The notes under the pieces are model-generated. The model ran no database searches. It worked only from the letters and a program-made list of their open reading frames with translations, and was not told where the DNA came from. A program made the position numbers and the translations under genes. From the IMG/VR virus record IMGVR_UViG_3300009285_012247, positions 1 through 48,351 of that record: a stretch of 48,351 bases of DNA; one strand, written 5' to 3'. Each line of letters begins with the position of its first letter. The stretch's first letter is position 1. Shown piece by piece: positions 20,251 to 34,926 of this stretch. Origin of the DNA: a virus.

Positions 20251-21298
20251 TCCATGGAACCAGCAGCGCCAATATGAAAAGGCTGTATGGGTCTACCCTG
20301 CACATCTCGCTGCCTATGCTACTTATTTAAGAAATGAAGGACATGAAGTCTGGTGGGATAAAAGTTACTGGCATGAGAATATATCGGTTGAAGAAAAAAA
20401 TAATTACAATCCAAAAATTAAATTTATAAATAACGATTTTGATATTGATGTCCCATTTGAAAAACTCCCTTATCCTGACCGCATATTTACGGACGCAAAG
20501 CATCCCCGCTGGCAATCTTACGGCAACTATAAGCTGAAACCGGCCACGCACATGATGGCATCAAATCTATGCTGGTGGGGGCGATGTGTCTTTTGCATCG
20601 ATATGCTCAAATTAAAGCAAGGTGAAAAGCGTGGTCTTAGATCGGTTAACCATTGCATGGAAGAAATCGATGATTTGATAGCTAATGGTTATAAAGAAGT
20701 CTTTGACGATTCCGGTACCTTTCCGATAGGCGATTGGCTCGAAGAATTCTGCGTAAAGATGATAAAATCGGGACGAAACAAGAAAATTACGGTTGGCTGT
20801 AACCTCAAACCGATTTCAGAACGCGTAGTTCCTTTTAAACTTATGAAGGCCTCGGGATTCAGGTTTATTTTGGTAGGTGTAGAGTCTGCGAACCAAAAGA
20901 CAATAGATAAAATTGTAAAAGGCCAAGATTCCAGTAAAGTTATTGAGAACATAAAGGCTATGAATGATGCAGGTCTTGAAGTTCACACTACTTGGATGAG
21001 TGCATATCCGTTTGAGACATGGGAAGATGAAAAGAAGAGTATAGAATTATGTAACTTTTTGTTGAGAAAAGGCTATTCAAAAACAGCCCAAGCCTCAGTT
21101 TATTCGCCGCCTAGAACAACCCCAGACCCAAACTCACAAGGACATAAACGTGTACCAATGTACTTTAATGCATATAAACATCCAGAGTTCTGGTCTAATA
21201 AACTTAAGGATTTGAAAAAGTGGGAAGATTTTACTTATTATATTCGAGGAGGTAGATTAGTGTTTGAGGAATATTGGAGAAAGTTTTGGAAAAAGTAA
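20228..21298 (+). CDS. Radical SAM protein with CX4CX2C cluster
   Basis: The 356-residue product has an N-terminal Rossmann-like remnant (HLAAYATYLRNEGHEVWWD, about 26-44) as in cobalamin-binding radical SAM enzymes, then the cluster motif CWWGRCVFC (115-123), spaced CX4CX2C rather than the usual CX3CX2C, and a core barrel with FRFILVGVESAN (about 212-223) and TWMSAYPFETWED. The substrate is unknown. It is the last plus-strand gene and faces the cargo operon, with related enzymes there; it probably entered with that cargo. No Shine-Dalgarno is clear. Confidence 0.8.
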   Translation: MRYLFPLSPWNQQRQYEKAVWVYPAHLAAYATYLRNEGHEVWWDKSYWHENISVEEKNNYNPKIKFINNDFDIDVPFEKLPYPDRIFTDAKHPRWQSYGNYKLKPATHMMASNLCWWGRCVFCIDMLKLKQGEKRGLRSVNHCMEEIDDLIANGYKEVFDDSGTFPIGDWLEEFCVKMIKSGRNKKITVGCNLKPISERVVPFKLMKASGFRFILVGVESANQKTIDKIVKGQDSSKVIENIKAMNDAGLEVHTTWMSAYPFETWEDEKKSIELCNFLLRKGYSKTAQASVYSPPRTTPDPNSQGHKRVPMYFNAYKHPEFWSNKLKDLKKWEDFTYYIRGGRLVFEEYWRKFWKK

Positions 21299-21357
21299 AT
21301 ATTGTTTGTTACCTACGTAAGAAAAACTATAAAACTCCGCTTTTTAGATATGGTCTA

Positions 21358-22032
21358 TTAAATCTTCTTTCTCAACTTAAAAATAAAACCGCGAGCGAAT
21401 AATGATGGAAATAGTCTGGAAAGTAATTGCAGTAATGTGTGCGGTAGTAAGCGGACTATTATGGCTATGTATGGTTGCCTTGTGCCGCGAATCTCATAAG
21501 AACAATATGCGCTTTCTTGAACGATTAAAAATTGCTCTTTCAAAAACGTCCGACACTGTTTCAAATTTGGAAGGTGTAAATGTTTCCCGCCGTAGTTAAA
21601 ACATTCTTGATCTACAATTCCAAAGAGGCAGCGTAAGCGATGAAAAATCGTCGCCTCATTTGGAAGACTAATTACCGCGATTCCGTCATCATCTAACGTA
21701 GTCCAAATAGATTTGAGTGTACCCTTAGGCATTATCAAATGTTCCAACGTTTCCAGGCAAAGAATCCGATCTACTTTTTCGCGCCATACAAATCCTCCAT
21801 CGATATCAAGTTGAATCGTCTTTGGATGCATGATTTGACAATCGATTCCTTGATAAAAGGAGTCTGGGGAAAGGTATTCAGATGCTTCCTGTTTATGGCA
21901 TCCAATATCCAAAACCGTCATTCCGGATTTAACATCTAGAAGTGCAACTGACTTTTTGATCCTTTCCTGAGCGTCAGGATCATTTTCCATATCAAGCCAG
22001 TAATCAATCGGAATTCGTTCTTCTGTTTTCAT
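21358..22032 (-). CDS. SAM-dependent methyltransferase
   Basis: The 224-residue class I methyltransferase has motif I VLDIGCHKQEAS (about 40-51), DRILCLETLEHL (about 88-99) and GIAVISLPNE later. It has a basic hydrophobic C-terminus (LPHTLLQLLSRLFPSLF) that may sit at the membrane. It is the final gene of the leftward cargo operon, 12 bases after the glycosyltransferase. It could methylate a sugar or lipid-linked glycan; the substrate is unknown. Confidence 0.8.
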   Translation of the reverse strand: MKTEERIPIDYWLDMENDPDAQERIKKSVALLDVKSGMTVLDIGCHKQEASEYLSPDSFYQGIDCQIMHPKTIQLDIDGGFVWREKVDRILCLETLEHLIMPKGTLKSIWTTLDDDGIAVISLPNEATIFHRLRCLFGIVDQECFNYGGKHLHLPNLKQCRTFLKEQFLIVQESAYCSYEIRGTRQPYIAIIVRLLPHTLLQLLSRLFPSLFARGFIFKLRKKI

Positions 22033-22044
22033 CTTGAAGCACGA

Positions 22045-23055
22045 TCATCCATGTTTTCCGGTTTTCCAATAATTTAGCACGCGGTCAACAAAAAATCTGA
22101 GCGGAGGATTTTTCATAATTGTTTTAAAAAGTTCGTCGTCGGATTTTGTTCTAAGCAGTTGAACTTTTTTTCTGCGTTCTAATGTATCTTTCCAATAAGT
22201 TGGATTGAAGTGATAGGCCAACCCCTTTAAAATATTCCAACTCGCTTGTGGCTTTCCTGTAAGAAACATGCCACATGCGGCAATAAACCAGCCAAGCATA
22301 AGAATTGGAATAATTCTCAAGGCATTCTTTAACTCCAAGAATTTAAGGTGCATCAAAATATAATTTCTACATCCGTTGAAGTAAACCCGTTTATTGGTGT
22401 AAAAGTAATCCCATGGCTTATATTTTGTGTTAAATGCGTGATAAAGAAGCGCTTTCGGCGCCCACATAACCTTTTGACCAATCGACCATATGTTCCAAGA
22501 AATATCAGTTTCTTCTGCAAGAATTTCGTAAACAGGCTCAAATCCGCCTACTGTTTCGAATGTGCTTCGTTTTAACATCATGCAAGCACCCTTCCCTGCA
22601 AAAACAGGTTCTTCTCGATCATATTGACCTTCATCTATAATTCCATTTTCCTCTCTTGCCCATAGAAATCCAGTCCAAGTCAGGAAACTGCCGGCCCCGT
22701 CAAATCGATCTCGAAATTCCATATTTTTTGTTTTTCCGTAAACCATACCTACATTCGGCTGTTTTAAAACTTTAACCATTTCAAAAAGTGTGTTCGGTTC
22801 CACAACAGTATCATCATCGAAAAATGCAAGATACTCACCTCGCGCATATCGGGCACCAACGTTTCTTTTATTGGCGGGACCAGAATCTGAAAAAATGGTT
22901 CTTATGTTTTTAAATTTTTTTCCAGGTAAGCTTGTTACAACTATAAGCTCATAATTAATATCTTTTGTTGTCGTAAGACTTTCTGAAAGCTTTGGGACAA
23001 ACTCACCTTTATGATGACAAACAACGACTGAAACAAAATCATCTTTCTTTTGCAT
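22045..23055 (-). CDS. GT2 glycosyltransferase with C-terminal membrane helix
   Basis: The 336-residue GT-A enzyme starts with VSVVVCHHKGE, has the nucleotide-sugar/metal motif FFDDDT (78-83), GKGACMMLKRSTFETVGGF (about 148-166, acceptor side) and EETDISWN (ED-type catalytic region, about 176-183). A hydrophobic stretch near 240-265 likely anchors it to the membrane. It resembles rhamnosyl- or dolichyl-type transferases that extend surface glycans. It overlaps the upstream gene by 17 bases. Confidence 0.85.
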   Translation of the reverse strand: MQKKDDFVSVVVCHHKGEFVPKLSESLTTTKDINYELIVVTSLPGKKFKNIRTIFSDSGPANKRNVGARYARGEYLAFFDDDTVVEPNTLFEMVKVLKQPNVGMVYGKTKNMEFRDRFDGAGSFLTWTGFLWAREENGIIDEGQYDREEPVFAGKGACMMLKRSTFETVGGFEPVYEILAEETDISWNIWSIGQKVMWAPKALLYHAFNTKYKPWDYFYTNKRVYFNGCRNYILMHLKFLELKNALRIIPILMLGWFIAACGMFLTGKPQASWNILKGLAYHFNPTYWKDTLERRKKVQLLRTKSDDELFKTIMKNPPLRFFVDRVLNYWKTGKHG

Positions 23056-23347
23056 AATAGGGAAAAAGATCTCTCAGCTTTTGCGCGTTATAATCCAAAT
23101 AGTACCGACTTAAAAATATATCAAGACCCGTTCCGGTTACGAATGCGTATGCGCTTTGCGTTTCTCTAAAGTGTATTTTTTCATGATGGGTAAGCGATCT
23201 TGATGAATGAGTAAAAAAATAGGCTGCATCTCTCAAGGTCTCAACAAGAATTGAAGCTCCGATTGTGTTAATTAAAATCAGAATTTGAGCATGTGATTCA
23301 GTTAAAGCGAATGTTTGTCCGTTCTTCATGCAATCGAAAAGCTCCAT
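23039..23347 (-). CDS. Small cargo-operon protein of unknown function
   Basis: The frame is open from TTG 23356; ATG 23347 (MELFDCMKNGQTFALTE) or ATG 23329, which has GGAG about 12 bases upstream, are better starts. The product of about 100 residues has a hydrophobic helix (ILILINTIGASILVE) and a His-rich segment (SRSLTHHEKIHFRE) but no recognised motif. It overlaps both neighbouring cargo genes, so it is co-translated with membrane glycan genes. Confidence 0.6.
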   Translation of the reverse strand: MELFDCMKNGQTFALTESHAQILILINTIGASILVETLRDAAYFFTHSSRSLTHHEKIHFRETQSAYAFVTGTGLDIFLSRYYLDYNAQKLRDLFPYYAKER

Positions 23348-24458
23348 GATAATCAAAGTGTGGCTTTCCTGTAATGTACCCTGTTACATCATAAAGTTTT
23401 CTTAAAGGTTTGCTCCACGGTTGAGTAAAAGGAAAGCAAGGGTAGATATCGCGGTTTATAAGGAGTAAAACGGCTTGAAGGAAAACGATGACGTACGATT
23501 CCTGAGAACTTAACTGCCATCTCTTAAGCCCATCAACAGCAAGAATGCTTAAAGAGAGAGTCATAAGGTATAAAGCGCGTGCCGGAATTCTTTGAACAGC
23601 CGGAATAACACCTATCGTTACCAAAATCCCAAATAATAATACAATCCAAAACCGAGAGTGCGAAAACCACATAAAGAGAAATATCAAAGGACTCATGTAC
23701 ATACACATTTCCATGAACATCACGCCATGGGTATGAATACGCCTTTTGATCGGAAGAAAAAACTCAAGCAATTTAAGGATTGGAACTCGACCGAAATTTT
23801 TATCTTGATTCAATGGATTTTTCCATCGAACCGATTTTCTTAAGTAAACGAAAAAAAGAATAAGCTGAGGTAAACCTAAAATGCATCCAAAAAAACTTTC
23901 AACTGGATGAGCGTAAAGTATGAAAGGAAGTACATAAACAAAAATTGGGTAATAACCAGCGTAAACAACCATCGCAAATGAAAATGCTCCAAATCCGCCT
24001 CCCAAAAAAATACCTGGAATCCACGCAAGTGTATAAGCAATACAAGGCTGCTGGATCTTGATTGAATAACCGCTATACATAAGCGTTAAAGCACCGAATA
24101 AAGCAACAGGTGGACTTGTCCATAAAGAAAACATTTCAAACGCAAGAAATGACCCCAAAATGTAATGGCTTAAAATGAGGTAGGTAAATAAACGAAATGA
24201 GTTGTCTAAACTCAGAAATGAGCCAATAAAAGCGCTTAAGAAATGCGGAGGATAAAAGGTCGAAAGAAACGGAATAGAAGCAGGATATTTGTAGTAAAGC
24301 TGATCGGTAAAAGGAAACTTCAATTTTCTAAGACTGTTTCCGATCCAATGCCAATGAGGGAAAAAAGTAGTTGCTATTTCTGAGGTGTGATTTAGATATG
24401 GATTTTTCCAGAACTTTGAAAAGAACAAAAAATTGTACAATGCTATTAAAGCGTACAT
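23298..24458 (-). CDS. YfhO-like polytopic membrane protein
   Basis: ATG 24458 (MYALIALYNFLFFSKFWKN) overlaps the upstream methyltransferase stop by 13 bases and removes a spurious 25-residue extension. The 386-residue product has about nine membrane helices. The first outside loop carries NPYLNHTSEIATTFFPHW, similar to the DxxxQFxPW loop of YfhO/GT-C proteins, and later YPPHFLSAFIGSFL. YfhO-type proteins transfer sugars from lipid carriers outside the cytoplasm. The C-terminal domain is short, so it is a compact member or a truncated one. Confidence 0.65.
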   Translation of the reverse strand: MYALIALYNFLFFSKFWKNPYLNHTSEIATTFFPHWHWIGNSLRKLKFPFTDQLYYKYPASIPFLSTFYPPHFLSAFIGSFLSLDNSFRLFTYLILSHYILGSFLAFEMFSLWTSPPVALFGALTLMYSGYSIKIQQPCIAYTLAWIPGIFLGGGFGAFSFAMVVYAGYYPIFVYVLPFILYAHPVESFFGCILGLPQLILFFVYLRKSVRWKNPLNQDKNFGRVPILKLLEFFLPIKRRIHTHGVMFMEMCMYMSPLIFLFMWFSHSRFWIVLLFGILVTIGVIPAVQRIPARALYLMTLSLSILAVDGLKRWQLSSQESYVIVFLQAVLLLINRDIYPCFPFTQPWSKPLRKLYDVTGYITGKPHFDYHGAFRLHEERTNIRFN

Positions 24459-25063
24459 AAAATTCTGAAACTTGACGCAAAAGAAGGTACATGAGAGATA
24501 AACCGGTCGAACAATGTGATCGGCAGCGCACACGGATAAAATGAAGCCTCTCCAATAACCGACCTGATTTTAAATTGATGATCGTAAAGCATTTGGATAA
24601 GAGCAGGAACACTGAAAACTCGAACATGGCCTCCGGTTTCTTCTTGATTCCAATTAAATGCCCGTCCATAGCACTTTCGATAGGAAACCTCATAAGAATG
24701 AGGTAAGTAACCAAACAAAAAAAGGATTCGATTAAACCAAGCACATAAATTTGGCGTACCGATATCCAAAACAGTCTTTTCGTTCATAATTGCTTTTGCC
24801 TCATCAAGAAAAAAATCGGGATCATCAAGATGTTCAATCACGTGATTTGCAAAAATTACATCCCAATTTCCAATAGGAAGTCCTAATTCCATAATGTCCC
24901 AACCTGAAGTCTTATCCAGTCCCGTAACCTCGGCGTCTGGGTAAAAATCATAAACCCGCCTTGATGTTCCACTTCCTACATCAAGCACTTTTTGTCTTTT
25001 GCCATTTAAAGAAGACATCTGGATATTCCTTCCAAACATCGCACTTCGCGCAAATTCCCGCAT
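24446..25063 (-). CDS. SAM-dependent methyltransferase
   Basis: ATG 25063 (MREFARSAMFGRNIQ) has AAAGGGG four bases upstream. The 205-residue product shows VLDVGSGTSRRV (about 26-37), EVTGLDKTSGW (about 45-55) and DVIFANHVIEHLDDPDFF (about 70-87), the order expected of class I methyltransferases. The later hydrophobic NRILFLFGYLPHS region is typical of those acting on lipid-linked sugars. It overlaps the SPASM radical SAM gene by 83 bases in another frame, the largest overlap in the operon. Confidence 0.8.
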   Translation of the reverse strand: MREFARSAMFGRNIQMSSLNGKRQKVLDVGSGTSRRVYDFYPDAEVTGLDKTSGWDIMELGLPIGNWDVIFANHVIEHLDDPDFFLDEAKAIMNEKTVLDIGTPNLCAWFNRILFLFGYLPHSYEVSYRKCYGRAFNWNQEETGGHVRVFSVPALIQMLYDHQFKIRSVIGEASFYPCALPITLFDRFISHVPSFASSFRILCTL

Positions 25064-25871
25064 ATTTCCCCTTTAAATGAGAATCTCTGATTGACTTAAA
25101 TTTCTCTGATGTCCATGCGTTATGAATACTCATTTGCGGGAATTTTCCGATGACTTCTTTCTGATGAGGATCGGAGCAGCAGATTAAAATATTTCCGTTC
25201 CAAGAAATAGCTGGAGCGAACCAAAGATGGTAACAAGGCCAACGGAACTCCCATTTCGACGGCTGTGCTCGAGAACGTGTTTCTCCAAACTTCCACGTCT
25301 CTATATCGCCTCCGTAGTTGTGAAGACTCCTTGTCTCCAGATTCGGCCATTTTGACCATTTTTTGTACTGATCTTCTGGTGTTATTTCTTTAATAAATCT
25401 GACTCTAAAACGCCCCCATTTTCGTAGAGTTTCAAGAGTACTTTCATTGAAGGTTGCCTCAGTCCTCCATGTCCAAAAAACTTGGTCAATTTTGAGCGCA
25501 ATAAGTTCCTCTGCGAACTCATTAATTTTTGTTCCGTTTGTTGTAACAAGGACAACGTGTCTTTTATTTGTCTCCTTAATATACCTAATTGCATCAAGGA
25601 TTCGTGGATAGAGTAAAGGTTCTCCAAAAAGATGGAGACTAAACGACCTTGTTCCATATTTTGAGGCCTCATTTATAATTTTCCTGAAAAGCTCAAAATC
25701 CATATCCTGCCTAATCTTTTCACGAGGACAATAAGAGCAGGAAAGGTTACAAGTAGCCGTTGTCTCAATAAAAAGATGTCTTGGAAAGTTTTGATCCATA
25801 TAAAATTGAGCAAGAAGTTTATAGATTGGACTTGGAAGTTTCTTTGCAATTTGCGCATAAATAGGATTCAA
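24981..25871 (-). CDS. Radical SAM protein with SPASM-type C-terminus
   Basis: TTG 25871 overlaps the upstream stop (TTGA) and avoids a long spurious extension, giving about 296 residues. The cluster motif CNLSCSYC (41-48) is followed by SLHLFGEPLLYP (GE motif) and a C-terminal Cys-rich part: CYHLWF, ILICCSD and ICAKCDVW, as in SPASM domains that bind extra iron-sulfur clusters. Such enzymes modify peptides, cofactors or sugars. Surrounding glycan genes suggest a sugar or lipid-linked substrate. This is inference. Confidence 0.8.
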   Translation of the reverse strand: MNPIYAQIAKKLPSPIYKLLAQFYMDQNFPRHLFIETTATCNLSCSYCPREKIRQDMDFELFRKIINEASKYGTRSFSLHLFGEPLLYPRILDAIRYIKETNKRHVVLVTTNGTKINEFAEELIALKIDQVFWTWRTEATFNESTLETLRKWGRFRVRFIKEITPEDQYKKWSKWPNLETRSLHNYGGDIETWKFGETRSRAQPSKWEFRWPCYHLWFAPAISWNGNILICCSDPHQKEVIGKFPQMSIHNAWTSEKFKSIRDSHLKGKYAGICAKCDVWKEYPDVFFKWQKTKSA

Positions 25872-27205
25872 ATCAGATGTGAAATCGCTGTTTTTAAAAA
25901 ATAACCAAGATATCTGAATTTTAAACCGACTTTGGTAAAACCAATTCCCCTGTGTGAGAGGTACCATGTGTAATAAGCAATTTTTTGGAACTTTTTGACT
26001 GTTGAAACTCCCAAGTTTCGCTGATGAACCTGGGCTGAGTAATTTTGATCGAATGCTTTCCATCGCTGATCCACCAGCCATCCGTTTTCCTTTGCAATAT
26101 TCCCCCATTCGGTACCTGGATAAGGAGCGCTAATTGAGAAATTGACGATGTCGAATGGTTCCGACAAGGACAACTCAAGAGTTCGCTCCATACTTTCTCT
26201 AGTATCCCCATACATGCCCAGCATAAAATATCCCCACACTTTAAGGCCTGCTTCTTTTGCTTGCCTGACTGCTTTTCGCGCGTCTTCAACGGACGCCTCC
26301 TTTCGGTTTAGCTTTAAAACACGATCGCTTCCAGATTCACAGCCAAAACTGATCATCCACCACCCGGCAGATTTCATCTCTTTAAGCAAATCTAAATCAA
26401 CCGAATCTACACGAGAATTGCTAACGATTCTTACCTTAAAAGGAAGATTGCGAACCTGCTTGCAAAACTCATAAATCCACTTTTTATTTAACGTCATTGT
26501 GTCCCCATGAAGAATAAAATTTGTGAGTTTATATTTTGAGATTTCTTCAATCACACTTTCTACATGGCGATAACGAATAGCACGTTCTGTGGTTATCGTA
26601 GTACGGCAATAAATGCAGGCATAAGGGCAACCGCGAGAAGCGATAATCGCCGTATAGCTATTTCCGATAAACGGCATTGAGTATTTATGAATTGGCAAAA
26701 GATCTTGTCTCGCTGGAGGAAGATCCTCAAAATGAGTACCCTTTGCGCTTTCTCCTGTAATGATCTCTCGCAATTTATATTCGGCTTCAGGACCTGATTT
26801 TGAATGTTGAATTGAATAATCAAGATAAGGAAATTCGTTTAATGTTTCTTTTTCTAGGACCTTAATATGAGGGCTTATCGCGGCTGTCTTAGCTCCGATT
26901 TGTTTCGCCATGTACGCGACCGCCATATCTGAACTAATGGTGCAGGTAACCGGATTAAAAAAGACCCAGCTCGGACGAAATCTTTTCATTTCATCATTAA
27001 GAGCTGAATAAGACATTTGTTCAGCAATACAGTCAATTAACTTAACGTGATGATCAGGATAAAGTGAGGCAAATTGGGCAAGCCCTGCTTGGGGCCATAT
27101 CTCGTTTGCTTTTGATTGGCGTCCTGAACGGTTTGTGTCTCTGTAATAATTCAGGCCGTCAGGAGACGGCGGGTTCACGAAAAGTATGCGGACTTGAGAA
27201 TTCAA
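25868..27205 (-). CDS. B12-type radical SAM enzyme without the cobalamin His
   Basis: The 445-residue product starts at TTG 27205. The N-terminal domain has the ILFVNPP strand and Rossmann layout of cobalamin-binding radical SAM enzymes, but the usual DxHxxG is replaced by LIDCIAEQ, so base-off cobalamin ligation by His looks lost. The cluster motif RGCPYACIYC has Cys at 193, 197 and 200. The core has FGCESGSDRVLKLNRK and YFMLGMYGDTRESM. It probably methylates or rearranges a surface-glycan or lipid intermediate; the substrate is unknown. It overlaps the deacetylase gene by 47 bases. Confidence 0.8.
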   Translation of the reverse strand: MNSQVRILFVNPPSPDGLNYYRDTNRSGRQSKANEIWPQAGLAQFASLYPDHHVKLIDCIAEQMSYSALNDEMKRFRPSWVFFNPVTCTISSDMAVAYMAKQIGAKTAAISPHIKVLEKETLNEFPYLDYSIQHSKSGPEAEYKLREIITGESAKGTHFEDLPPARQDLLPIHKYSMPFIGNSYTAIIASRGCPYACIYCRTTITTERAIRYRHVESVIEEISKYKLTNFILHGDTMTLNKKWIYEFCKQVRNLPFKVRIVSNSRVDSVDLDLLKEMKSAGWWMISFGCESGSDRVLKLNRKEASVEDARKAVRQAKEAGLKVWGYFMLGMYGDTRESMERTLELSLSEPFDIVNFSISAPYPGTEWGNIAKENGWLVDQRWKAFDQNYSAQVHQRNLGVSTVKKFQKIAYYTWYLSHRGIGFTKVGLKFRYLGYFLKTAISHLI

Positions 27206-27746
27206 TTTCTCTACAAAGCCTTTCCAGTTTGTCTCTCACGTTTTTTAACCCAATTTGCCTTTTAAAATTTTGAATTGGGTTGTAGAGAGTAGGATGAACC
27301 AGCATAACATCGTAAGGATGAATATAAAAAATTCCAGAGCGCTCCAATAATCTCTTTGAAAGTAAATAAGGAAGCGCTCTAAACCAGAAGCCGCCTGAGT
27401 AAAGCCTTTTCTGACCTTTAAATCCAGGCGCTCTGTATAAACTCGGATCAACTGCCAAAGGCAGCGGTTCATATAATTTTTCCGACGAATTGTGGTATTT
27501 GCTGTGCCAGCCGATTAAATGACCTTCTTTTTGAATCATTTCACTTAATTGAGGTTTTTTAGCCATTAACCATCCCAAACAATACCAAATCGCTTTAATG
27601 TGATGTCGTCCTAAAAGATCAAGCAGATAATAAGTTGGTTCTTCTGTTTGGTCATCCCAATGTTCCCAATTATTAGAATAAGGTTCATACGAAAACCATG
27701 GCTCCCAATCAATGGTAAAAGTCATTTTCTGTTCACTAATGCGCAT
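27159..27746 (-). CDS. NodB-like polysaccharide deacetylase
   Basis: The 195-residue product (alternative start ATG 27725) shows the three family motifs: FTIDWEPWF (catalytic-base region, about 10-18), GHLIGWHSKYH (metal-binding His, about 75-85) and YRAPGF (about 104-109), followed by IHPYDV. It is short for the family, but the core motifs are present. It would remove acetyl groups from GlcNAc-type residues of a lipid-linked or cell-wall glycan. There is no signal peptide, so it acts in the cytoplasm, fitting modification before export. Confidence 0.75.
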   Translation of the reverse strand: MRISEQKMTFTIDWEPWFSYEPYSNNWEHWDDQTEEPTYYLLDLLGRHHIKAIWYCLGWLMAKKPQLSEMIQKEGHLIGWHSKYHNSSEKLYEPLPLAVDPSLYRAPGFKGQKRLYSGGFWFRALPYLLSKRLLERSGIFYIHPYDVMLVHPTLYNPIQNFKRQIGLKNVRDKLERLCREIEFSSPHTFREPAVS

Positions 27747-29286
27747 TCACAACTTGTCTTTGAACAAATTCAGGCAGCTTTCTTTTGTAAATAATAGTTT
27801 TAACAAACGCTTTAAAAGCAAGCCAAAGCCTTGCGACATCTTCAATTGTCCTTAACTTTTTCAATTCAGCGAACATAATGTGAGGCCTTAAGTAAAATCT
27901 TCTCCAAAAAGTCTTTGAATATCGAATCAAGTCATCACGTGTAAGACCAAAAGGAACGAAATTGATTGAAAAAGTATTGAAGCGATCCCATGAAGGATCA
28001 AATGTCCCAAACTTATTCGCTGTTTCATAAGATTCAGAGCCTGGCAATGGCTGTAAAAAAGTGTGCTGTGCATAGCTGAGTTTAAGAGTACAAGCAAAAT
28101 CAATTGTTTCCATAATAGAATCATGAGTTTCACCAGGATTTCCAAATATGAAGTTACCTTTAGAAATAATTCCAGCTTCCTGAACGGAATTAACACATTG
28201 TTTGATTCTTTCCTTTGTTACATTTTTTCTCATCGAATCAAGTATTCTTTGGCATCCTGATTCGATTCCTATTTCAACCATCCAGCAACCAGCTTTCTTC
28301 ATAAGTCTCATCATATCTGGATGAAGAAAGTCTGCCCGAGCGCAACAAGACCAGGTAAACGGAAGCTTTTCATTAATAATCGTTTCGCAAATTTCTTTAA
28401 GTCTTGGACGAGATCCAACAAATAAATCATCATAAAAAAGAAAATCTGAAACGCCGTATTTCGAGTAAAAGTCTTTCATAAAGTTAATCAAATATTCAGC
28501 AGAATTATGCCTGAATCCTCTGCCAACAACTCCCAAGTCACAAAAAGTGCATTTACCGGTACATCCTCTGCTCGTCACAAGACCAACGCTTTTAAATTTC
28601 TTCGTTCCGAAAACAGACAACCTGTAACTGGAAAATAGATTCGGAATCAAATCAAAAGCCGGAGGCGGAAATTCATCTAACGACTTAAAAAATTGCATTC
28701 GTTCGTTTACTTTTATGTTTTGACCATTTCTCCACACAAGACTTTTGATTTGATTGACCTCTGTTTTCGTTCTGATTTTCTCAAGAAACTCCGTAAAAAC
28801 GATTTCTCCCTCTCCGACAACTCCATAATCAAATTGAGGATACCGCTTAAGGGTTTCGATGGGTTCACTGGTAACATGGACGCCTCCTAAAATTGTAGTA
28901 ATCAAAGGATCACACAATTTAACAGATTTTGCTATTTGCGCAGCAGCGGAGATCATAACCGTCATGGCTGTAAGTCCTACCACTCTAGGCTTCCAGCCGC
29001 GAATGGCATCAACAATCGCTTTGACGGTTAATCCCTCCGCGTGCGCATCAAGGATTCGAACTTCGTAACCATATTTTCGAATAGTAGCGGCGAGTGAAAG
29101 AATGCCAATGGGAGGAGATGAACTTTTAACGTCGCTTAAATCCCATTCGCCGTAAAGTAAATCAAAACTAACAGGCGGGTTGATTAAAAGAACTTTAAGG
29201 TTTTTTTGACTTGACTTAAATCCATAATCATCTATTGACGAATGGTCTAAAGAAGCGTCTTTTCCAATCGTTAAAACTGCGCTCAT
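27736..29286 (-). CDS. Cobalamin-dependent radical SAM enzyme
   Basis: The 516-residue enzyme has an N-terminal B12-binding domain with VLLINPP (32-38) and a full DxHxxG motif, DAHAEG (80-85), whose His would bind cobalt in base-off cobalamin, and GGVHVTSEP (134-142). The radical SAM core has RGCTGKCTFC with Cys at 242, 246 and 249, then VEIGIESGCQRIL and NFIFGNPGETHDS. Class B enzymes of this type methylate unreactive carbons or rearrange rings in lipid, antibiotic and hopanoid pathways. It is the main catalytic oddity of the cargo operon. Confidence 0.88.
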   Translation of the reverse strand: MSAVLTIGKDASLDHSSIDDYGFKSSQKNLKVLLINPPVSFDLLYGEWDLSDVKSSSPPIGILSLAATIRKYGYEVRILDAHAEGLTVKAIVDAIRGWKPRVVGLTAMTVMISAAAQIAKSVKLCDPLITTILGGVHVTSEPIETLKRYPQFDYGVVGEGEIVFTEFLEKIRTKTEVNQIKSLVWRNGQNIKVNERMQFFKSLDEFPPPAFDLIPNLFSSYRLSVFGTKKFKSVGLVTSRGCTGKCTFCDLGVVGRGFRHNSAEYLINFMKDFYSKYGVSDFLFYDDLFVGSRPRLKEICETIINEKLPFTWSCCARADFLHPDMMRLMKKAGCWMVEIGIESGCQRILDSMRKNVTKERIKQCVNSVQEAGIISKGNFIFGNPGETHDSIMETIDFACTLKLSYAQHTFLQPLPGSESYETANKFGTFDPSWDRFNTFSINFVPFGLTRDDLIRYSKTFWRRFYLRPHIMFAELKKLRTIEDVARLWLAFKAFVKTIIYKRKLPEFVQRQVVNAH

Positions 29287-29296
29287 ATCAGATCTC

Positions 29297-30022
29297 TCAT
29301 AATTTTTCCGCCTTTACCATAAGCGACCAGCTCATCTTTTTAAGCCACGTCTTTGCTATCTTTTCATCAAGCCACATCATAACTCTGGCAATCGAAATCA
29401 GAATTTTAAAATTGACAATATCCGGAAAGCCAAGCAAAGGATATCCAAAATAACCGATATAACGTCTTTCTTTAATTTGAAATCCGGCATCCTCAATCAT
29501 GTTAAAAAGCTCTCGATCATTAAAGGACTTATGAAGATGAGAAAACCTGTCTGTATGCTGGAAAATAGATCGTATCACCTCATAAACAAAATTGTGATTT
29601 GGGTCATAACAAGACCATTTACCGCCAGGTTTGAGAACTCGAAACATTTCTTTGAGTCCTACGTGTGGGTTTTCTAAATGGTGAAGCAATGAACGGCACA
29701 CGACATAATCAAAATGATCATCAGGAAAAGGAATTTTTTCCGCACTTGCCTTGATCCACCGATGAGGATTATGAGCAAGCATTCCGTCTGAGACGTCTAT
29801 TCCGGTGATATCAAAATTGGGATAAAGCTGGCTTAAAAATCCATTTCCGCATCCAACATCTAAAACTTTATGCGACATTCGATCTGACATTCTGATCTCT
29901 TCCAGCATTTCACAAGCATAACGTGCATGATAAAGAAAACCTGTTCCGCTGTAACGCTTGGCGTAAAATTTAGAGGTATAATCCTGAACTAATTTTTCGG
30001 TGGTAGGTTCGCCTTTGGACAT
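29297..30022 (-). CDS. SAM-dependent methyltransferase (UbiE/Methyltransf_11 type)
   Basis: The 241-residue product shows VLDVGCGNGFLS (about 53-64), DITGIDVSDGML (about 70-81), SAEKIPFPDDHFDYVVC (about 93-109) and MFRVLKPGGKW (about 125-135), the complete class I signature. A hydrophobic C-terminal third (LISIARVMMWLDEKIAK) may contact membrane lipids. It overlaps the upstream GT2 gene by 34 bases. It probably methylates a sugar or a polyprenyl-linked intermediate. Confidence 0.88.
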   Translation of the reverse strand: MSKGEPTTEKLVQDYTSKFYAKRYSGTGFLYHARYACEMLEEIRMSDRMSHKVLDVGCGNGFLSQLYPNFDITGIDVSDGMLAHNPHRWIKASAEKIPFPDDHFDYVVCRSLLHHLENPHVGLKEMFRVLKPGGKWSCYDPNHNFVYEVIRSIFQHTDRFSHLHKSFNDRELFNMIEDAGFQIKERRYIGYFGYPLLGFPDIVNFKILISIARVMMWLDEKIAKTWLKKMSWSLMVKAEKL

Positions 30023-30708
30023 CGAAGATTCCTTAATACGCTTCTTAAACCGCGTGTTCTAAGCGCAAAACCGAGTTTCAAAATATAAAAAAGCGTTATC
30101 CATCCGTCTTTAAAAACATTGACCTTACTTTTTCCTTCTTTTCTATGAATCACATCAATTGGGAAAAATTCAACTCTATAGCGGTCACAAATCATGGAAA
30201 GTGTAAGACAGGTGGTAAATGAAAAGGATTGGCAAAGAATGTCTCTATATCCAAAAGCGATACCTTTTTTAAAAATTCTAAATCCGCTGTTCAAATCATT
30301 AAGCCAATAAAGGCAAATGAACGAAGCTGTCCAATTAAGAAATTTTCTTCCCAAATACCGGTACCAAATCTCATTTTTGATTCTTCTTTTTCCTATGATC
30401 ATATCCGCTTCAATCATCTGCCAAACTTGGTAAAGATTTAATACATCCTGAACTTGATGCTGGCCGTCTCCATCCATTGTGACAATAATCTCATTAGAAG
30501 CGTTTTTAATGCCCGTCAAAATAGAAGCGCCATAACCAAAAGAAACTCCGTGTTTGATTGATTCAGGGTAAGAATTATCCGAACCATCATCTACAATAAT
30601 TACCTCAGCTTCTCTTTCTTTAAGTCCAACGCGCAAAGAGTCTAAGACTTTGTGACTTTCATTCCGTTCAGGAATTATGACGCTAACACCAAATAAGCTA
30701 CCAGACAT
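29989..30708 (-). CDS. Polyprenyl-phosphate mannosyltransferase-like GT2 (DPM1 type)
   Basis: The 239-residue GT2 enzyme has VIIVDDGSDN (36-45), YGASILTGIKNA (59-70), MDGDGQH (78-84, the DxD metal motif) and GKRRIKNEIWYRYLGRKFLNW (about 106-126). This is the pattern of dolichyl/undecaprenyl-phosphate mannosyl- or glucosyltransferases, which make the lipid-linked sugar used by GT-C enzymes. The operon also encodes two GT-C-like proteins (23298 and 33117), so donor maker and user are encoded together. Confidence 0.85.
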   Translation of the reverse strand: MSGSLFGVSVIIPERNESHKVLDSLRVGLKEREAEVIIVDDGSDNSYPESIKHGVSFGYGASILTGIKNASNEIIVTMDGDGQHQVQDVLNLYQVWQMIEADMIIGKRRIKNEIWYRYLGRKFLNWTASFICLYWLNDLNSGFRIFKKGIAFGYRDILCQSFSFTTCLTLSMICDRYRVEFFPIDVIHRKEGKSKVNVFKDGWITLFYILKLGFALRTRGLRSVLRNLRCPKANLPPKN

Positions 30709-30917
30709 ACAGAACCTATTGTGATCAAGGTTTTAATAACATCGAAAATAAGACTTATGAAATACATCTTAAAAACTGGTTTCAATATTCTTGAAAGATT
30801 TTCTTCACTAAAATCAAACCCATATTTTTGAAGTTCTCCAAGAACAAATTTGAACTCTTCAAGCAATGGACGAATCGTATGCTCGACAAAAGCTCCGTAA
30901 GGCTTTAGATCAATCAT
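30675..30917 (-). CDS. Small protein with one membrane helix
   Basis: The 80-residue product (MIDLKPYGAFVEHTIR) is charged and helical in the first half and ends in a hydrophobic helix (LITIGSVCLVAYLVLAS). It is linked by an ATGA overlap to the GroES-like gene and overlaps the GT2 gene by 34 bases. It may anchor or adapt a partner at the membrane. No family is recognised. Confidence 0.65.
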   Translation of the reverse strand: MIDLKPYGAFVEHTIRPLLEEFKFVLGELQKYGFDFSEENLSRILKPVFKMYFISLIFDVIKTLITIGSVCLVAYLVLAS

Positions 30918-31219
30918 TCCGTCTTACCCAATAGATCCCATTCACTTATGACCCTGTAGGTCTCAGTTTTGAACTGAATATTGATACCAGAAAAAGGTTT
31001 AAAATAAATCTTATCCCCTTTTTTATGCTCATATTGACATCGAGATCCCCATGAAACAATCGTTCCGGTTGAAGCAACTTTTTTCAACGCAGTCTCATAT
31101 TTTTCAGGAAGAGTAATCTTTCCTTCCTTTAATATCCTCACAATTTCTGGATTTTGATCCATAAACTCATCTTGATCTTGTTTAATCAAAACGTTATCAT
31201 TAAGCACTTTTAACGGCAT
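30914..31219 (-). CDS. GroES-like co-chaperonin
   Basis: The 101-residue protein fits Cpn10 well in length and motif order: LKVLNDNVLIKQDQ at the start, then KITLPEKYETAL (mobile-loop region), STGTIVSWGSR (the GxVVxVG strand), KKGDKIYFKPFSG (the GDxVLF motif) and YRVISEWDLLGK at the end. Co-chaperonins cap GroEL; phages such as T4 (gp31) encode one to fold their capsid protein. Here it lies inside a glycan operon rather than with the head genes, which is unusual. The mobile loop differs from host GroES. Confidence 0.8.
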   Translation of the reverse strand: MPLKVLNDNVLIKQDQDEFMDQNPEIVRILKEGKITLPEKYETALKKVASTGTIVSWGSRCQYEHKKGDKIYFKPFSGINIQFKTETYRVISEWDLLGKTE

Positions 31220-31979
31220 AAAAACACCTCAAGAATATTTTGTAAAGTTCATTCCGCCAATGATATGGAACATGCCGATTAGAAAACTTCAAATAGTTTT
31301 CAAACCTGTTTTTTGAGTCCGTGAGTCTCAGTTTAAAAGCGCCTGATCTTGACGGACAATGATAAAGCTTAGCTCTCGGATTAAACCACAGTTGGGAACC
31401 TTCTTTCCTAATTCTGTAAGCAAGATCAGGTTCTGACCAGTCTCCAATTCCTCGATAAGATTCATCAAATCCGCCTACTTTTTCAAATGCCTCTCTTTTA
31501 AAAGCCATATTACATGCTTCAAGAAAATCAACTCTACCTTCATAACTGCATGACTCATTACACGCTCCAGTCGTCCAGGCTCCGCTAGAAGTGATATGTC
31601 CTGGAAGCTGTTCAAGCCCGTCAAGAAATAGCCAATCGTAAAGCTTTTTTAGCATGGGATATCGAAATAAGTCCCTATTTTTACGATAACCGCTATCAAT
31701 AATGCTAGGGCCAGAAACACCGCCAATCCGATTTCCATAAGTGAAACAAGAAAGAATCTCTTTAAGCCAATTTTTTGTCGCCACAATATCATCATCAATG
31801 AAAACAAGGATGGCTCCTTTTGCCCGTTTTGCTCCTTCATTTCTCAACTTTGTAAGTTCGCCTTTCTCACGGACGAGAACAATCTCAAAATCTTTCGAGC
31901 TTTGTTCTTCTAAGCTCTTGAGACAGGCGTCAAGGGATTTAGGTCTTCCAAGCGTCGGAATGATAATGCTCGCTTGCAT
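31200..31979 (-). CDS. GT2 glycosyltransferase
   Basis: The 259-residue GT-A enzyme has SIIIPTLGRPKSL (4-16), LTKLRNEGAKRAKG (42-55), the IDDD metal motif (61-64), CNMAFKREAFEKVGGFDE (about 155-172) and GDWSEPDLAYRI (acceptor/catalytic region). The type is close to rhamnosyltransferase-like family 2 enzymes. It overlaps the upstream GT2 gene by 70 bases and the GroES-like gene by 20. It lacks a membrane segment. It likely adds one sugar to a lipid-linked oligosaccharide. Confidence 0.85.
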   Translation of the reverse strand: MQASIIIPTLGRPKSLDACLKSLEEQSSKDFEIVLVREKGELTKLRNEGAKRAKGAILVFIDDDIVATKNWLKEILSCFTYGNRIGGVSGPSIIDSGYRKNRDLFRYPMLKKLYDWLFLDGLEQLPGHITSSGAWTTGACNESCSYEGRVDFLEACNMAFKREAFEKVGGFDESYRGIGDWSEPDLAYRIRKEGSQLWFNPRAKLYHCPSRSGAFKLRLTDSKNRFENYLKFSNRHVPYHWRNELYKIFLRCFYAVKSA

Positions 31980-32854
31980 AAAGTCCTCAAAACAAGAATC
32001 GTGTACATAATCAAAAATCCTACACAGACTGGCCAGTGCCAGAACCAGGCAAAGTCTCTAATTTTTGCAAATCCTTTAATGCTGACGAAGAGGGGCTGAA
32101 TAACTGTGACAGTAAAAAAGATGTACAGAGCAAGTCTAAGGTAATCTTCTTTTGCACTGACCATTCGCCAGCGTCTATCGTGACGGTTACAGTATAAATC
32201 TCTTGCATAGCGGTACCTCCTAAGTAAAAAGGTGAATAAGTTGTCCGATGTGCGATGCCAAATTTGTAATGCTCCCGACCTGAAATAAAAGTATTTTCCA
32301 AGTTTTCTTAAATCTTCAGCGTTATCCATCGGATAATAATGATCGAGATCAGACTGAAGAATATCGTCACGCTTGTAAAAAAATCCATTGCATCCGAGGC
32401 TTGGGATAAACTTTCTAAAATTTAACATCTCTCCAACTAAAATTTCAGGATCATCCCAATAAGGCAGGCGATCATTTTTACCAAGATAAAAACAAATCGG
32501 ATCATTTCCTCCAACCAAAGAAAAATAACGATTTAAAGAATTATCATCTTTCCTTACAGCATAATGTCTACCGTAAACCCCAGTAAATGGAAGTCCGCTG
32601 TAAAAGATTTTAAACACATCAGTAAAAGTTCTAGACGCTACAACGTAGTTATCCGCGCAAAACATAGCACAAATTTCTCCTCGGGCGCGCCTGATTCCAA
32701 TGGCCTTAGCTTGTTCTGAATCGCCTTCTGTAATGACCAGAATTTCTATTTGATCTTGTGGAAAATCTTGAACCTTGATTGAAGCAATAAGGTCTTTAAG
32801 CTTTTGAGATTCACTATCTTTTTTTGATGCTGGAATAATGCATGAAAAAATCAC
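31910..32854 (-). CDS. GT2-like glycosyltransferase with membrane C-terminus
   Basis: The 314-residue product starts at GTG 32854, with GAGGA just upstream. It has CIIPASKKD (5-13) and ARGEICAMFCADNYV (57-71), where the usual DxD is FCADN, a degenerate form. Two hydrophobic helices near the C-terminus (ALYIFFTVTVIQPLF and VCVGFLIMYTILVLRT) suggest membrane attachment. The altered DxD could mean changed donor or metal use, or loss of activity. It overlaps the downstream GT2 by 70 bases. Confidence 0.75.
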   Translation of the reverse strand: MIFSCIIPASKKDSESQKLKDLIASIKVQDFPQDQIEILVITEGDSEQAKAIGIRRARGEICAMFCADNYVVASRTFTDVFKIFYSGLPFTGVYGRHYAVRKDDNSLNRYFSLVGGNDPICFYLGKNDRLPYWDDPEILVGEMLNFRKFIPSLGCNGFFYKRDDILQSDLDHYYPMDNAEDLRKLGKYFYFRSGALQIWHRTSDNLFTFLLRRYRYARDLYCNRHDRRWRMVSAKEDYLRLALYIFFTVTVIQPLFVSIKGFAKIRDFAWFWHWPVCVGFLIMYTILVLRTLCKRALSFRRLEDLNPLTPVSRA

Positions 32855-32875
32855 TTCCTCTTTTATGTTAATCTC

Positions 32876-33163
32876 CTATTTTTGTTCGAGTCCTAATTGT
32901 TTCTCAAGTTCAATTAGTTCTTGCTTCGCCTTTGGAATCGAGTCAATTGTAAATCCGGTTATGGGACAATTCAGAAAGCGGACAAGTTCCTCTTTCGCAT
33001 TCACAAGGTCGTTTCTTTGCCTAAAAATTGCGTATAAATTAGCATGTGCGGGCGCATAAAAAAAGTCCATTTTTCCGCATTCCCTATAGGTCTCAATCGC
33101 CATATCAATTTTTCCGTCAGAGTGAAACTTCTGTGCTAAATCGAATATTTCGGTAACGTTCAT
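32876..33163 (-). CDS. TPR-like protein
   Basis: The 95-residue product (MNVTEIFDLAQKFHSDG) consists of helix pairs with TPR-style spacing: KIDMAIETYRECGKMDFFYAPAH is one clear repeat and NDLVNAKEELVRFL a second. TPRs are protein-binding scaffolds. The gene overlaps the end of the TMTC-like membrane protein, itself ending in TPRs, by 47 bases. It may be a split-off C-terminal TPR unit acting with that enzyme. Confidence 0.7.
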   Translation of the reverse strand: MNVTEIFDLAQKFHSDGKIDMAIETYRECGKMDFFYAPAHANLYAIFRQRNDLVNAKEELVRFLNCPITGFTIDSIPKAKQELIELEKQLGLEQK

Positions 33164-34829
33164 AATGTGCCTCCGTGACTCCTCTATTGATTGATTTTAG
33201 GTGTTCTTCCATTGGTTTCATGAGATAAAGCATCAGTTCAAGTTGATTCATCTCTTTGGACCATAATTTATCAAAGTGAACCACTTTTGCATTAAGACAT
33301 TTTATAAGCGCGTCTTTAGCCAAAGAAAACTGGCCTGCCGACTTATAGAGCGAATAAAGATTGTAATAAGGAACATCATAAAAAGGATTTACTTTTGCCG
33401 CTTGGAGCCAGACATCCAGCGCCGAACCCTGCCGGCCGCTGTTGGCCAAGACAACGCCTAAATTTCCCATAGCAACTTCAGATTTAGGAAAGTTCCAAAT
33501 GTTTGATTTGTAAAATGATTCTTCATCTTTAAAGGTAGGAATGTGAACCCAAGTTCTCATGATGTAAAGACCAAGAAGCGTACCGTAAAGAATTGGAAAG
33601 TCTTTTAGATAATAGGCTGCGACAAGTGAAAAACCAAGAATTGAATTAAAGGCATAACGATCAACCACAAACTGCTGTGCGGTAATCACATTCAAAAAAA
33701 GGCAAAGATAAAGAGAAAACCAAAGAAGCCCTAATCGAACCGTGAATGGAGCGAAATAAAATAGGAGACCCAAAAGAATGATATAGACAACCCCTCTCCA
33801 GAAAATAAAGTCAAAGCGCTCAAGAGTTTCGTCAAAATGATATCCAAACGTATGGAATAGACCCAGACTCCATGGCCAAATCATAAGCTCCACATAATAA
33901 GCAAAAGTCTTAACCATAAGAATAGGTTTTCTTCGGGTTAAATAAGTAGACTCACCCATGTTTTGGCTTTTGAATGCATCTTTCCTGTAATCGACATGCC
34001 AGCTAAAGATCTTGATTCCAAAACCAAATGCAATCCAAAAGGAAATGAGCGCATAAATAGGTTTTCCAATAAAGGCAAGAATAGCCCAATTGGCGGCTGC
34101 CGACATGAGGCCGGAACAAGAAATCAAGGTAAAAAATGCAATCAAAAGTGAATTGGGAAAAATGTGAATTGAGGAAAGAGCAAGGTTAAATGTTACAATC
34201 AAACCAAAATAATTAAGGAGGTATCCAAATCCTGAACACCAAGCTACCGCTTGACAGGAAATCGGATTAACGAGAAAAAGGAGAGTCGTAAGAAGCGCAA
34301 GATCTGAACCGAACAGTTTGGACAAAAAGGTATAGGTAAGGAAAGAATTGAGTAACTGCGTAATTAAAGAAAGTAAATGGTGCCTCAGCGGATTTTGAGT
34401 AAATCCGAAAATTTCATGTCCTTTTGTTGTCCTTCCAATAACCGTAAACTTCTTTCCTATTTGATGTCTTGCCCATCGAAGAATTGAAAAAGGGAAACCA
34501 ATATGAGGATTGAATTGTATATTTCTAAATTTTAGTTTCTTCTTTTCCGGTCCTACCTCTAATTCATACGAGTCAATCTTGTCGCCATAAGCGTCACTTT
34601 TATCAATATGGCATTTTGGACAAACGCTAGATCCTTTCGTTTCCTCCACAGCCCAAGTGTAACTACAAAGCCTGCATATAAAACCTGCTACTCTTAATTT
34701 ATCTGAAAAACGCTCAATTCCGTCATGGTCATCACTTACAAACCCGCCCCAAAGTGAATTGATCCAAGTTACGAAAAATACAATGGTTATGATTGAAAAG
34801 TGGGCAAATGAACCATGAAGAAGATCCAT
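33117..34829 (-). CDS. TMTC/PMT-like membrane O-glycosyltransferase with zinc ribbon and TPRs
   Basis: ATG 34829 is preferred to TTG 34871 and gives 570 residues. After the first membrane helix comes FVSDDHDGI, matching the catalytic acidic loop of PMT/TMTC-type GT-C enzymes. The region LLNSFLTYTFLSKLFGS to NPISCQAVAWCSG follows the TMTC consensus (LLNALLVYLLLRRL to HPVxxEAVAW). About ten helices precede C-terminal TPR-like units (MGNLGVVLANSGRQGSAL, YNLYSLYKSAGQFSLA). A four-Cys zinc ribbon (CRLC and CPKC, about residues 52-73) is inserted in the first loop, which I do not recall from the family. It is the first gene of the cargo operon. Confidence 0.78.
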   Translation of the reverse strand: MDLLHGSFAHFSIITIVFFVTWINSLWGGFVSDDHDGIERFSDKLRVAGFICRLCSYTWAVEETKGSSVCPKCHIDKSDAYGDKIDSYELEVGPEKKKLKFRNIQFNPHIGFPFSILRWARHQIGKKFTVIGRTTKGHEIFGFTQNPLRHHLLSLITQLLNSFLTYTFLSKLFGSDLALLTTLLFLVNPISCQAVAWCSGFGYLLNYFGLIVTFNLALSSIHIFPNSLLIAFFTLISCSGLMSAAANWAILAFIGKPIYALISFWIAFGFGIKIFSWHVDYRKDAFKSQNMGESTYLTRRKPILMVKTFAYYVELMIWPWSLGLFHTFGYHFDETLERFDFIFWRGVVYIILLGLLFYFAPFTVRLGLLWFSLYLCLFLNVITAQQFVVDRYAFNSILGFSLVAAYYLKDFPILYGTLLGLYIMRTWVHIPTFKDEESFYKSNIWNFPKSEVAMGNLGVVLANSGRQGSALDVWLQAAKVNPFYDVPYYNLYSLYKSAGQFSLAKDALIKCLNAKVVHFDKLWSKEMNQLELMLYLMKPMEEHLKSINRGVTEAHYERYRNIRFSTEVSL

Positions 34830-34849
34830 GATGTGAGGAAGTTGAAGAT

Positions 34850-34878
34850 ATGGTAATAAGAAGTTAACCAATTGTCAA
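34850..34878 (-). promoter_or_regulatory. Promoter for the leftward cargo operon
   Basis: On the minus strand TTGACA (34878-34873), a 17-base spacer and TACCAT (34855-34850) fit a sigma70-type promoter with a moderate -10. It is the only recognisable promoter before the 17-gene block. The -35 box is the mirror image of the opposite-strand -35 at 34892, making an ATTGTCAA-13-TTGACAAT inverted repeat. Confidence 0.55.
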
Positions 34879-34891
34879 TAACAATACGGAC

Positions 34892-34920
34892 TTGACAATT
34901 TTACTTACGAGTGGTATACT
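34892..34920 (+). promoter_or_regulatory. Strong rightward promoter for a structured RNA
   Basis: TTGACA (34892-34897), a 17-base spacer and TATACT (34915-34920) form a near-consensus promoter. Transcription would begin near 34927 and run away from the cargo operon. No protein-like gene follows until 35289; the intervening sequence is rich in base-pairing segments. Confidence 0.8.
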
Positions 34921-34926
34921 CTTTTT

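Follow-up and report, generated by a model that had tools for sequence, protein, structure and literature searches.

The described systems closest to the locus reported here are cited from excerpts of their sources. Expression of the P22 gtrABC operon reduces P22 infectivity, and phage gtr operons are described as acting by changing the receptor (PMC3688519); for the sugar islands of pelagimyophages, an alteration of the host surface that counters superinfection has been proposed (PMC7029224). In the Arn route, ArnC loads undecaprenyl phosphate, ArnD deformylates on the lipid, and ArnT, a GT-C enzyme, transfers outside (PMC12748117). In the HpnI-HpnK-HpnJ route to the hopanoid cyclitol ether, transfer and deacetylation come before the radical SAM step (PMC12583986), and CsbB-GtcA-YfhO is a comparable three-part system for teichoic acid glycosylation in Gram-positive bacteria (PMC7389260). 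Here, we report a block of 17 minus-strand genes, about 13.5 kb long and roughly a quarter of the genome, in viral record IMGVR_UViG_3300009285_012247 (IMG/VR; 48,351 bases, the whole of which is called the window).

The operon belongs to the conserved core of this uncultured phage lineage and is not cargo. We put at about an even chance the reading that this core is a glycan module, probably a late one, that acts to change the surface glycan of infected cells.

Layout and gene content of the block

The open reading frame (ORF) listing gives 17 consecutive, tightly packed ORFs at 21358 to 34871 on the minus strand, which overlap at 13 of 16 junctions and leave gaps of 10 to 21 nt at the other three (longest-ORF starts). 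This matches the initial annotation, which described a 13.5-kb minus-strand block with nearly every gene overlapping the next. The longest start of the first operon ORF is a TTG (34871), with an ATG option at 34829. The block lies downstream of the tail genes, and its flanks are phage-type (terminase and capsid families; baseplate- and tail-fibre-type families), in keeping with the earlier view that it is phage borne. The Pfam scan took in 30 window ORFs, all of 80 aa or longer. The genes are listed below by coordinates, strand, and identity, with the evidence in brackets; SAM in the methyltransferase entries stands for S-adenosylmethionine.

20228..21298, +, rSAM4, radical SAM protein converging on the block and adjacent to it in most relatives (PF04055, 8.5e-14; orthologues)
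21358..22032, -, MT3, SAM-dependent methyltransferase (PF13489, 36 bits, cut-off 27)
22045..23055, -, GT2c, glycosyltransferase family 2 (GT2) type (PF13506 and PF00535 above cut-off)
23039..23356, -, orf105, small conserved protein (no Pfam match; present in 10 of 11 relatives)
23298..24533, -, GTC2, GT-C-fold membrane protein, nearest fold STT3 oligosaccharyltransferase (predicted structure; predicted local distance difference test, pLDDT, 73.7)
24446..25063, -, MT2, SAM-dependent methyltransferase (PF13489, 39.4 bits, cut-off 27; clear orthologue in 3 of 11 relatives)
24981..26108, -, SPASM radical SAM protein (PF04055 and PF13186 above cut-off; start uncertain)
25868..27205, -, rSAM2, HpnJ-like radical SAM protein (PF04055, 9.2e-25; B12-binding domain undetected)
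27159..27746, -, NodB-like/DUF3473 polysaccharide deacetylase (PF01522, 34.5 against a cut-off of 23.1; PF11959, 43.3 against 29.6)
27736..29286, -, B12rSAM1, HpnJ-like protein with B12-binding and radical SAM domains (PF02310, 1.7e-23; PF04055, 1.6e-21)
29297..30022, -, MT1, SAM-dependent methyltransferase (PF08241, 1e-22)
29989..30708, -, predicted DPM1/GtrB/ArnC-like polyprenyl-phosphate sugar synthase (PF00535; phrog_841, 9.4e-16; PDB matches)
30675..30917, -, orf80, small protein with one transmembrane (TM)-like stretch (present in 9 of 11 relatives)
30914..31219, -, GroES-like co-chaperonin, Cpn10 (PF00166, 2.4e-10; phrog_3188)
31200..31979, -, GT2b, glycosyltransferase family 2 (PF00535, 1.1e-13)
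31910..32854, -, GT2a, divergent family 2 glycosyltransferase (family-profile matches)
32876..33163, -, small TPR-like protein, 95 aa (no Pfam match; cross-matches the TPR-bearing protein 33117)
33117..34871, -, GTC1, GT-C-fold membrane protein with TPR tail, nearest fold protein O-mannosyltransferase Pmt4 (predicted structure, pLDDT 76.8; ATG possible at 34829)

Most of the gene identities first proposed are backed by these searches: Pfam or profile matches uphold the four GT2 enzymes, three methyltransferases, NodB-like deacetylase, SPASM protein, and GroES-like protein, and predicted structures uphold the two GT-C-like membrane proteins. Three radical SAM genes lie inside the block, as had been counted, and a fourth (rSAM4) sits just outside it, on the side of the early genes. 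Of the two enzymes described as cobalamin type, B12rSAM1 has the B12-binding domain, the radical SAM domain, and the CX3CX2C motif, whereas PF02310 went undetected in rSAM2, although its radical SAM part is related to B12-type families. The TPR tail of GTC1 is likewise supported; the small ORF at 32876, also called a TPR protein, takes that label from its cross-match to GTC1. The SPASM proteins of relatives are about 80 to 100 aa shorter than the window ORF, so the start of the latter is uncertain.

In the window as a whole, no Rfam matches and no tRNAs were found (0 of each). Within ORF 18598-19851, positions 18809 to 19204 (+) hold about 20 overlapping copies of a repeat with a 12-base period, which encodes a Ser/Ala/Val/Asp-rich stretch of a DUF6745 protein. 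The window ends are not identical; the frames of ORFs 3-644 and 47178-48350 are compatible with a circular join of the record ends, the former reading by eye as a coiled coil and the latter starting within a LamG-like domain, and the ends were left unjoined.

Conservation of the block in the phage lineage

Scanning IMG/VR viral contigs with a terminase profile identified 45 loci, of which 32 had at least 47% identity, and every terminase-found contig of at least 34 kb among the 32 carries GTC1 and a B12-type radical SAM gene (10/10, counting G024, a repeat of G021, and leaving aside G012, G013, G036, and G037, which were added by block-gene scans). The presence scans covered 30 records, the known remainder of the 45 loci being short, and short contigs without the block were not scored as lacking it. 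By contrast, the four contigs that measure 40 kb or more and have distant terminases (27% identity or less) yielded neither GTC1, nor a B12-type radical SAM gene, nor the DPM1-like gene. All 14 GTC1-profile loci in viral contigs sit with the same capsid family, at 58 to 74% identity to that of the window. Profile matches crossed stop codons in G016, G021, and G024 (radical SAM) and in G008 (GTC1); open frames were confirmed in G016 (494 aa), G021 (447 aa), and G008 (544 aa). Three relatives, G011, G003, and G013, have identical ends (69, 127, and 77 bases), as expected of complete genomes, and are 52 to 53 kb long. In the window and seven relatives, between 24 and 31% of the contig is taken up by the block, compared with 19% in the 95-kb G021 record.

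The recurrent gene order is GTC1, GT2a, GT2b, GroES, orf80, DPM1-like, NodB, (MT1), B12rSAM1, (rSAM2), SPASM, (MT2), GTC2, orf105, GT2c, MT3, mostly followed by the convergent rSAM4. The initial annotation had pointed to shared gene order as a check, and of the 10 relatives mapped, nine show this order with little alteration, the exception being the reduced and rearranged G022 (the map excludes G013, which is split across its ends, and G024, G036, and G037 fall outside the order map, profiling, and distance sets). All 11 relatives profiled have GroES; of the 10 mapped, nine carry it within the operon, and G022 carries it in its rearranged part. G021 differs in that rSAM4 is on the same strand as the operon and DPM1 comes after an additional B12-type gene; G008 has an unconvincing MT3 and extra convergent sugar genes; G016, G017, and G019 have a single B12-type gene where the window has two; and the G019 contig terminates inside the block.

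By tblastn, a mean fraction of 0.89 of the 11 head and packaging genes of the window had a match, compared with 0.80 of the 17 genes in the block, 0.41 of the 13 tail genes, and 0.06 of the 12 early ones (13 relatives including fragments, of which G036, G037, G012, and G013 were found by block genes, giving some bias to the block). Terminase and capsid average 53% and 64% identity across the phages. Distances of block genes were correlated with those of terminase, portal, and capsid over 10 to 12 phages (r, 0.33 to 0.77), with 0.77 for SPASM, 0.75 for GTC2, 0.74 for GTC1, 0.70 for B12rSAM1, 0.66 for GT2c and rSAM2, 0.61 for GT2b, 0.60 for GT2a, 0.54 for NodB, and 0.50 for orf105, the values of rSAM2, B12rSAM1, and rSAM4 not being independent because some phages supply one same gene. 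Two tail genes gave 0.69 and 0.83 in the same comparison. Judged from the sequences, the block is probably under purifying selection.

A chimeric assembly, or host DNA lying beside phage DNA, was also considered, having been raised in the initial annotation. The GC content of the window block (0.383, against 0.482 in the head genes and 0.040 below the whole contig) would fit such an origin. The same arrangement nevertheless recurs in independent contigs from other metagenomes, three of them with identical ends, and in eight relatives the block GC content is within 0.014 of that of the whole contig; we rejected this explanation, which is barely conceivable. Scans of cellular genome contigs, which detect close relatives only and so leave bacterial homologues or a cellular donor possible, confirmed none of 82 pattern stretches for B12rSAM1 and none of 48 for the terminase. 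A PF13186 search found SPASM proteins in 8 of 14 control genomes, which has no bearing on the donor.

Two of the other records deserve mention. L002 (IMGVR_UViG_3300002223_000074; 9,625 bases, another metagenome) carries the window head genes at 100% protein identity and stops short of the block, so that the same or a very close phage appears to have been sampled twice. G021 (IMGVR_UViG_3300009105_000002; 95,319 bases) resembles, by eye, two phages end to end: its left part contains sugar genes and a separate set of terminase-, portal-, and tape-measure-like ORFs, its right part is of this lineage, and a piece of the latter is the separate record G024.

Predicted enzymes and a putative surface-glycan role

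GT2a (31910) has no Pfam match when searched alone; PF00535 is found in 9 of 12 aligned orthologues, and the family profile matches solved GT2 enzymes. The DPM1-like protein (29989) matches the phage GtrB-like family phrog_841, and the best hits of its profile in the PDB are ArnC chains, together with dolichol-phosphate-mannose synthases. GtrB carries C-terminal membrane segments, and the DPM1-like protein has no TM-like stretch. The acidic GT2 motifs are mostly retained, with lapses in G010 (DPM1-like) and G021 (GT2c). In the deacetylase, metal-site residues D13, E15, and H81 are invariant in 10 sequences and H85 nearly so (missing in the aligned G021 sequence). The DPM1-like and NodB-like genes overlap in 8 of the 10 phages that have both, an arrangement that recalls ArnC-ArnD and HpnI-HpnK.

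The CX3CX2C motif is kept in all 12 B12rSAM1 and all 11 SPASM sequences. Cysteine spacing in rSAM4 is CX4CX2C in six and CX7CX2C in four of 10 true sequences (the G019 and G022 rows, which are another gene, being omitted). HpnJ is the nearest curated family for both B12rSAM1 and rSAM2, and a deacetylase and GT2 enzymes share the operon, as in the cyclitol ether route (PMC12583986); the product could then be a small HpnI-HpnK-HpnJ-like glycolipid or membrane compound that alters the host membrane or acts as a signal, in place of a modified surface polymer. The HpnJ scores (183.1 bits for B12rSAM1 and 153.2 for rSAM2) are, however, far under the NCBIfam TIGR03471 cut-off of 577.6 and do not reach threshold, and the two GT-C enzymes imply that a lipid-linked donor is used, so that we consider a glycolipid product quite improbable.

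Sequence families name neither GTC1 nor GTC2, which gave no match in Pfam and curated family searches. AlphaFold models were built on alignments of the phages' own sequences (predicted template modelling score, pTM, of 0.81 for GTC2). The top structural match of GTC2 is yeast STT3 (Z 20.5, 303 aligned, 3.8 Å); its first 49 rows are GT-C-type enzymes or glycosylphosphatidylinositol (GPI)-transamidase subunits, and row 50 is an ammonia channel (Z 4.4). Foldseek gave nothing below 1e-3 for GTC2, and 19 of its 21 top rows were again GT-C-type enzymes or GPI-transamidase subunits. The top match of GTC1 is Pmt4 (Z 15.9, 308 aligned, 4.3 Å), and in the second structural comparison rows 1 to 24 are PMT, ALG12, OST/PglB/AglB, or ArnT entries, all of them users of lipid-linked sugars, at Z 13.1 to 15.9, a range to be read knowing that helical bundles alone can reach about 13 to 14 through arrangement; Foldseek ranked TPR proteins first for GTC1, owing to its TPR tail. 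ArnT is among the structural matches of both proteins. In these models, GTC1 and GTC2 have GT-C folds, and they are predicted to be membrane glycosyltransferases acting on lipid-linked sugar; the shared fold does not fix donor or acceptor.

These matches bear on a second alternative, glycosylation of the phage's own virion or exported proteins, with the TPR-bearing GT-C protein acting as a protein O-glycosyltransferase like Pmt4 or TMTC. Pmt4 and STT3 are both protein glycosyltransferases, GroES lies within the operon, and GTC1 combines a TPR tail with a near-N-terminal DD pair, invariant in 12 sequences, as in TMTC proteins (PMC7801869). Of the TMTC features, the DD motif in the first outer loop, the GT-C fold, and the TPR tail are present in window GTC1, and the DUF1736 segment had no Pfam match at 0.01. 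GT-C active sites point away from the cytoplasm, where tailed phages assemble, which speaks against virion proteins as targets, and ArnT and ALG12 match GTC1 nearly as well as Pmt4 does, leaving its acceptor unfixed by fold; we regard this alternative as unlikely. A broader proposal, which we likewise regard as unlikely, is that the lineage depends, within its core genome, on making its own radical SAM/B12-tailored lipid-linked glycan alongside virion assembly and that one GT-C enzyme is a viral protein glycosyltransferase for exported or virion-associated proteins, in scope like the glycosylation of giant viruses. Window GTC1 also has a cysteine-rich insertion with two CXXC pairs (residues ~67 to 95), absent from 11 aligned relatives.

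Phage glycosyltransferases can also modify DNA (PMC7029224), and the GT2, methyltransferase, and radical SAM enzymes might act on phage bases. Such hypermodification is very improbable: no base-hydroxylating or thymidylate-synthase-like gene was found in the 30 window ORFs scanned against Pfam, and two GT-C membrane enzymes with a polyprenyl-phosphate sugar synthase fit it poorly.

For the preferred reading, remodelling of the surface glycan, we infer the substrates and order of steps as follows. The DPM1/GtrB/ArnC-like enzyme (29989) would load a sugar on host polyprenyl phosphate at the inner membrane face; the NodB-like enzyme (27159) would take off an N-acyl group; the HpnJ-like radical SAM enzymes (27736 and 25868) would C-methylate or rearrange the sugar; and the methyltransferases and three other GT2 enzymes would decorate or extend it. 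A host flippase would turn the lipid-linked sugar over, and on the outside the GT-C enzymes (33117 and 23298) would pass it to an acceptor, which could be an exported protein, lipopolysaccharide, or some other surface glycan. The benefit would probably be an altered receptor on the producing cell, so that superinfection is blocked and progeny are kept off spent cells; receptor change is the role that, in our analysis, fits best. Host-envelope remodelling had been proposed in the initial annotation and is likewise our preference. An RlpA-like double-psi beta-barrel protein (PF03330; 12652 to 13197, +) among the early genes and, by eye, a lipoprotein-like ORF (44374 to 44652) hint at a diderm host.

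No nucleotide-sugar gene, ArnA/ArnB included, was found among the window ORFs scanned against Pfam, and the window phage would depend on host nucleotide sugars. A GDP-mannose dehydratase occurs in some relatives (G008 and G017 by Pfam; G019, G021, and G022 by eye), G008 also has a DegT aminotransferase and an RmlD-like gene, and G016 has an epimerase-type gene; with such variable extra genes, the sugar probably differs among phages.

As to timing, the cultured phages HTVC023P and CRP-901 encode GroES a few genes away from their capsid gene, and GroES is part of the core of HTVC023P-type phages (PMC9599517); its place inside the operon here links the operon to virion assembly. This placement and the location of the block downstream of the tail genes suggest that the operon is expressed late, while virions are assembled. 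A promoter-like site just upstream (34850 to 34878, -; 10 of 12 consensus positions) is a prediction that is no proof of function, in a 1-kb region with 6 such sites against 2.3 expected in shuffles, and may give the operon a separate transcript. The interval between tail genes and operon (34872 to 35481) is coding poor; it holds an 11/12 promoter-like site directed away from the operon (34892 to 34920, +) and, by eye, a possible small membrane ORF on the plus strand. No terminator-like site was found at the convergence point (21100 to 21600).

Several observations weigh against this reading. The sugar genes could serve another product. Neither a flippase nor an initiating phosphoglycosyltransferase, polymerase, or ligase was found among the window ORFs scanned against Pfam, and of the complete lipid-linked sugar route first proposed, the chemistry with radical SAM enzymes is supported and the completeness is not. 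The profile search of G022 found the DPM1-like, SPASM, GTC2, and NodB genes missing. G010 lacks NodB and MT3 (with extra convergent genes), which removes the deacetylase, and in its DPM1-like protein the first conserved motif is incomplete. The NodB gene of the window follows B12rSAM1 and does not adjoin the DPM1-like gene, and in G011 the DPM1-like and deacetylase genes are 420 nt apart. The Mantel r is weak for MT3 (0.45), DPM1 (0.38), rSAM4 (0.34), and GroES (0.33), so some genes may have been exchanged, and the lower GC content of the window block given above also counts here.

Comparison with known systems

Like the gtrABC operons of P22-like Salmonella and Shigella phages, the block is phage borne and pairs a GtrB-like synthase with membrane glycosyltransferases acting on lipid-linked sugar. 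It differs in having 17 genes in place of three, with a deacetylase, methyltransferases, and radical SAM enzymes; in being a conserved core; and in its GtrB-like protein without membrane segments. A GtrA-like small multi-span flippase is absent from the 17 block ORFs, whose sole small membrane ORF, orf80, has one TM-like stretch. The pelagimyophage sugar islands (host recognition cluster) likewise have several glycosyltransferase genes near tail genes and radical SAM cassettes; they are described as hypervariable (PMC7029224), whereas order and content are kept here across a divergent lineage, a contrast drawn from the published description.

With the Arn pathway, the block shares an ArnC-like enzyme, a deacylase, and an ArnT-like GT-C fold, and it differs in the lack of ArnA/ArnB among the scanned ORFs, in its NodB/DUF3473-type deacetylase, and in the added radical SAM enzymes. 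Glycosyl transfer, deacetylation, and an HpnJ-like radical SAM enzyme are shared with HpnI-HpnK-HpnJ, from which the block is set apart by scores below the HpnJ cut-off and by its lipid-linked transfer enzymes. HTVC023P-type pelagiphages and Roseobacter phage CRP-901 resemble this lineage in capsid (26.9% and 29.2% identity) and in encoding GroES close to the capsid gene; the portions read, 40,756 of 60,878 and 38,290 of 53,013 bases, carry no annotation of a comparable operon.

Searched against GenBank phage records, GTC1 matched none of 50,697 at an E value of 1e-5; B12 radical SAM matched 6, GT2b 2, DPM1-like 8, and SPASM 7 records, all distant (22.7 to 35.6% identity). No description of such a core phage operon was found in our searches of open-licence papers. 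Phage sugar genes are usually regarded as swappable cargo; here, about 13.5 kb is kept largely in order and better than tail or early genes, as a compact set of unusual sugar-modifying enzymes. If the late change of the host surface is true, a costly multi-enzyme pathway with B12-dependent radical chemistry would be important enough to belong to the core, and it can now be tested whether phages go beyond editing surface glycans to building them. The chemistry and the phage-borne modification of surface glycans are of kinds already known; here they appear in a new form, a large operon of conserved gene order that includes B12 radical SAM enzymes and is core to a phage lineage.

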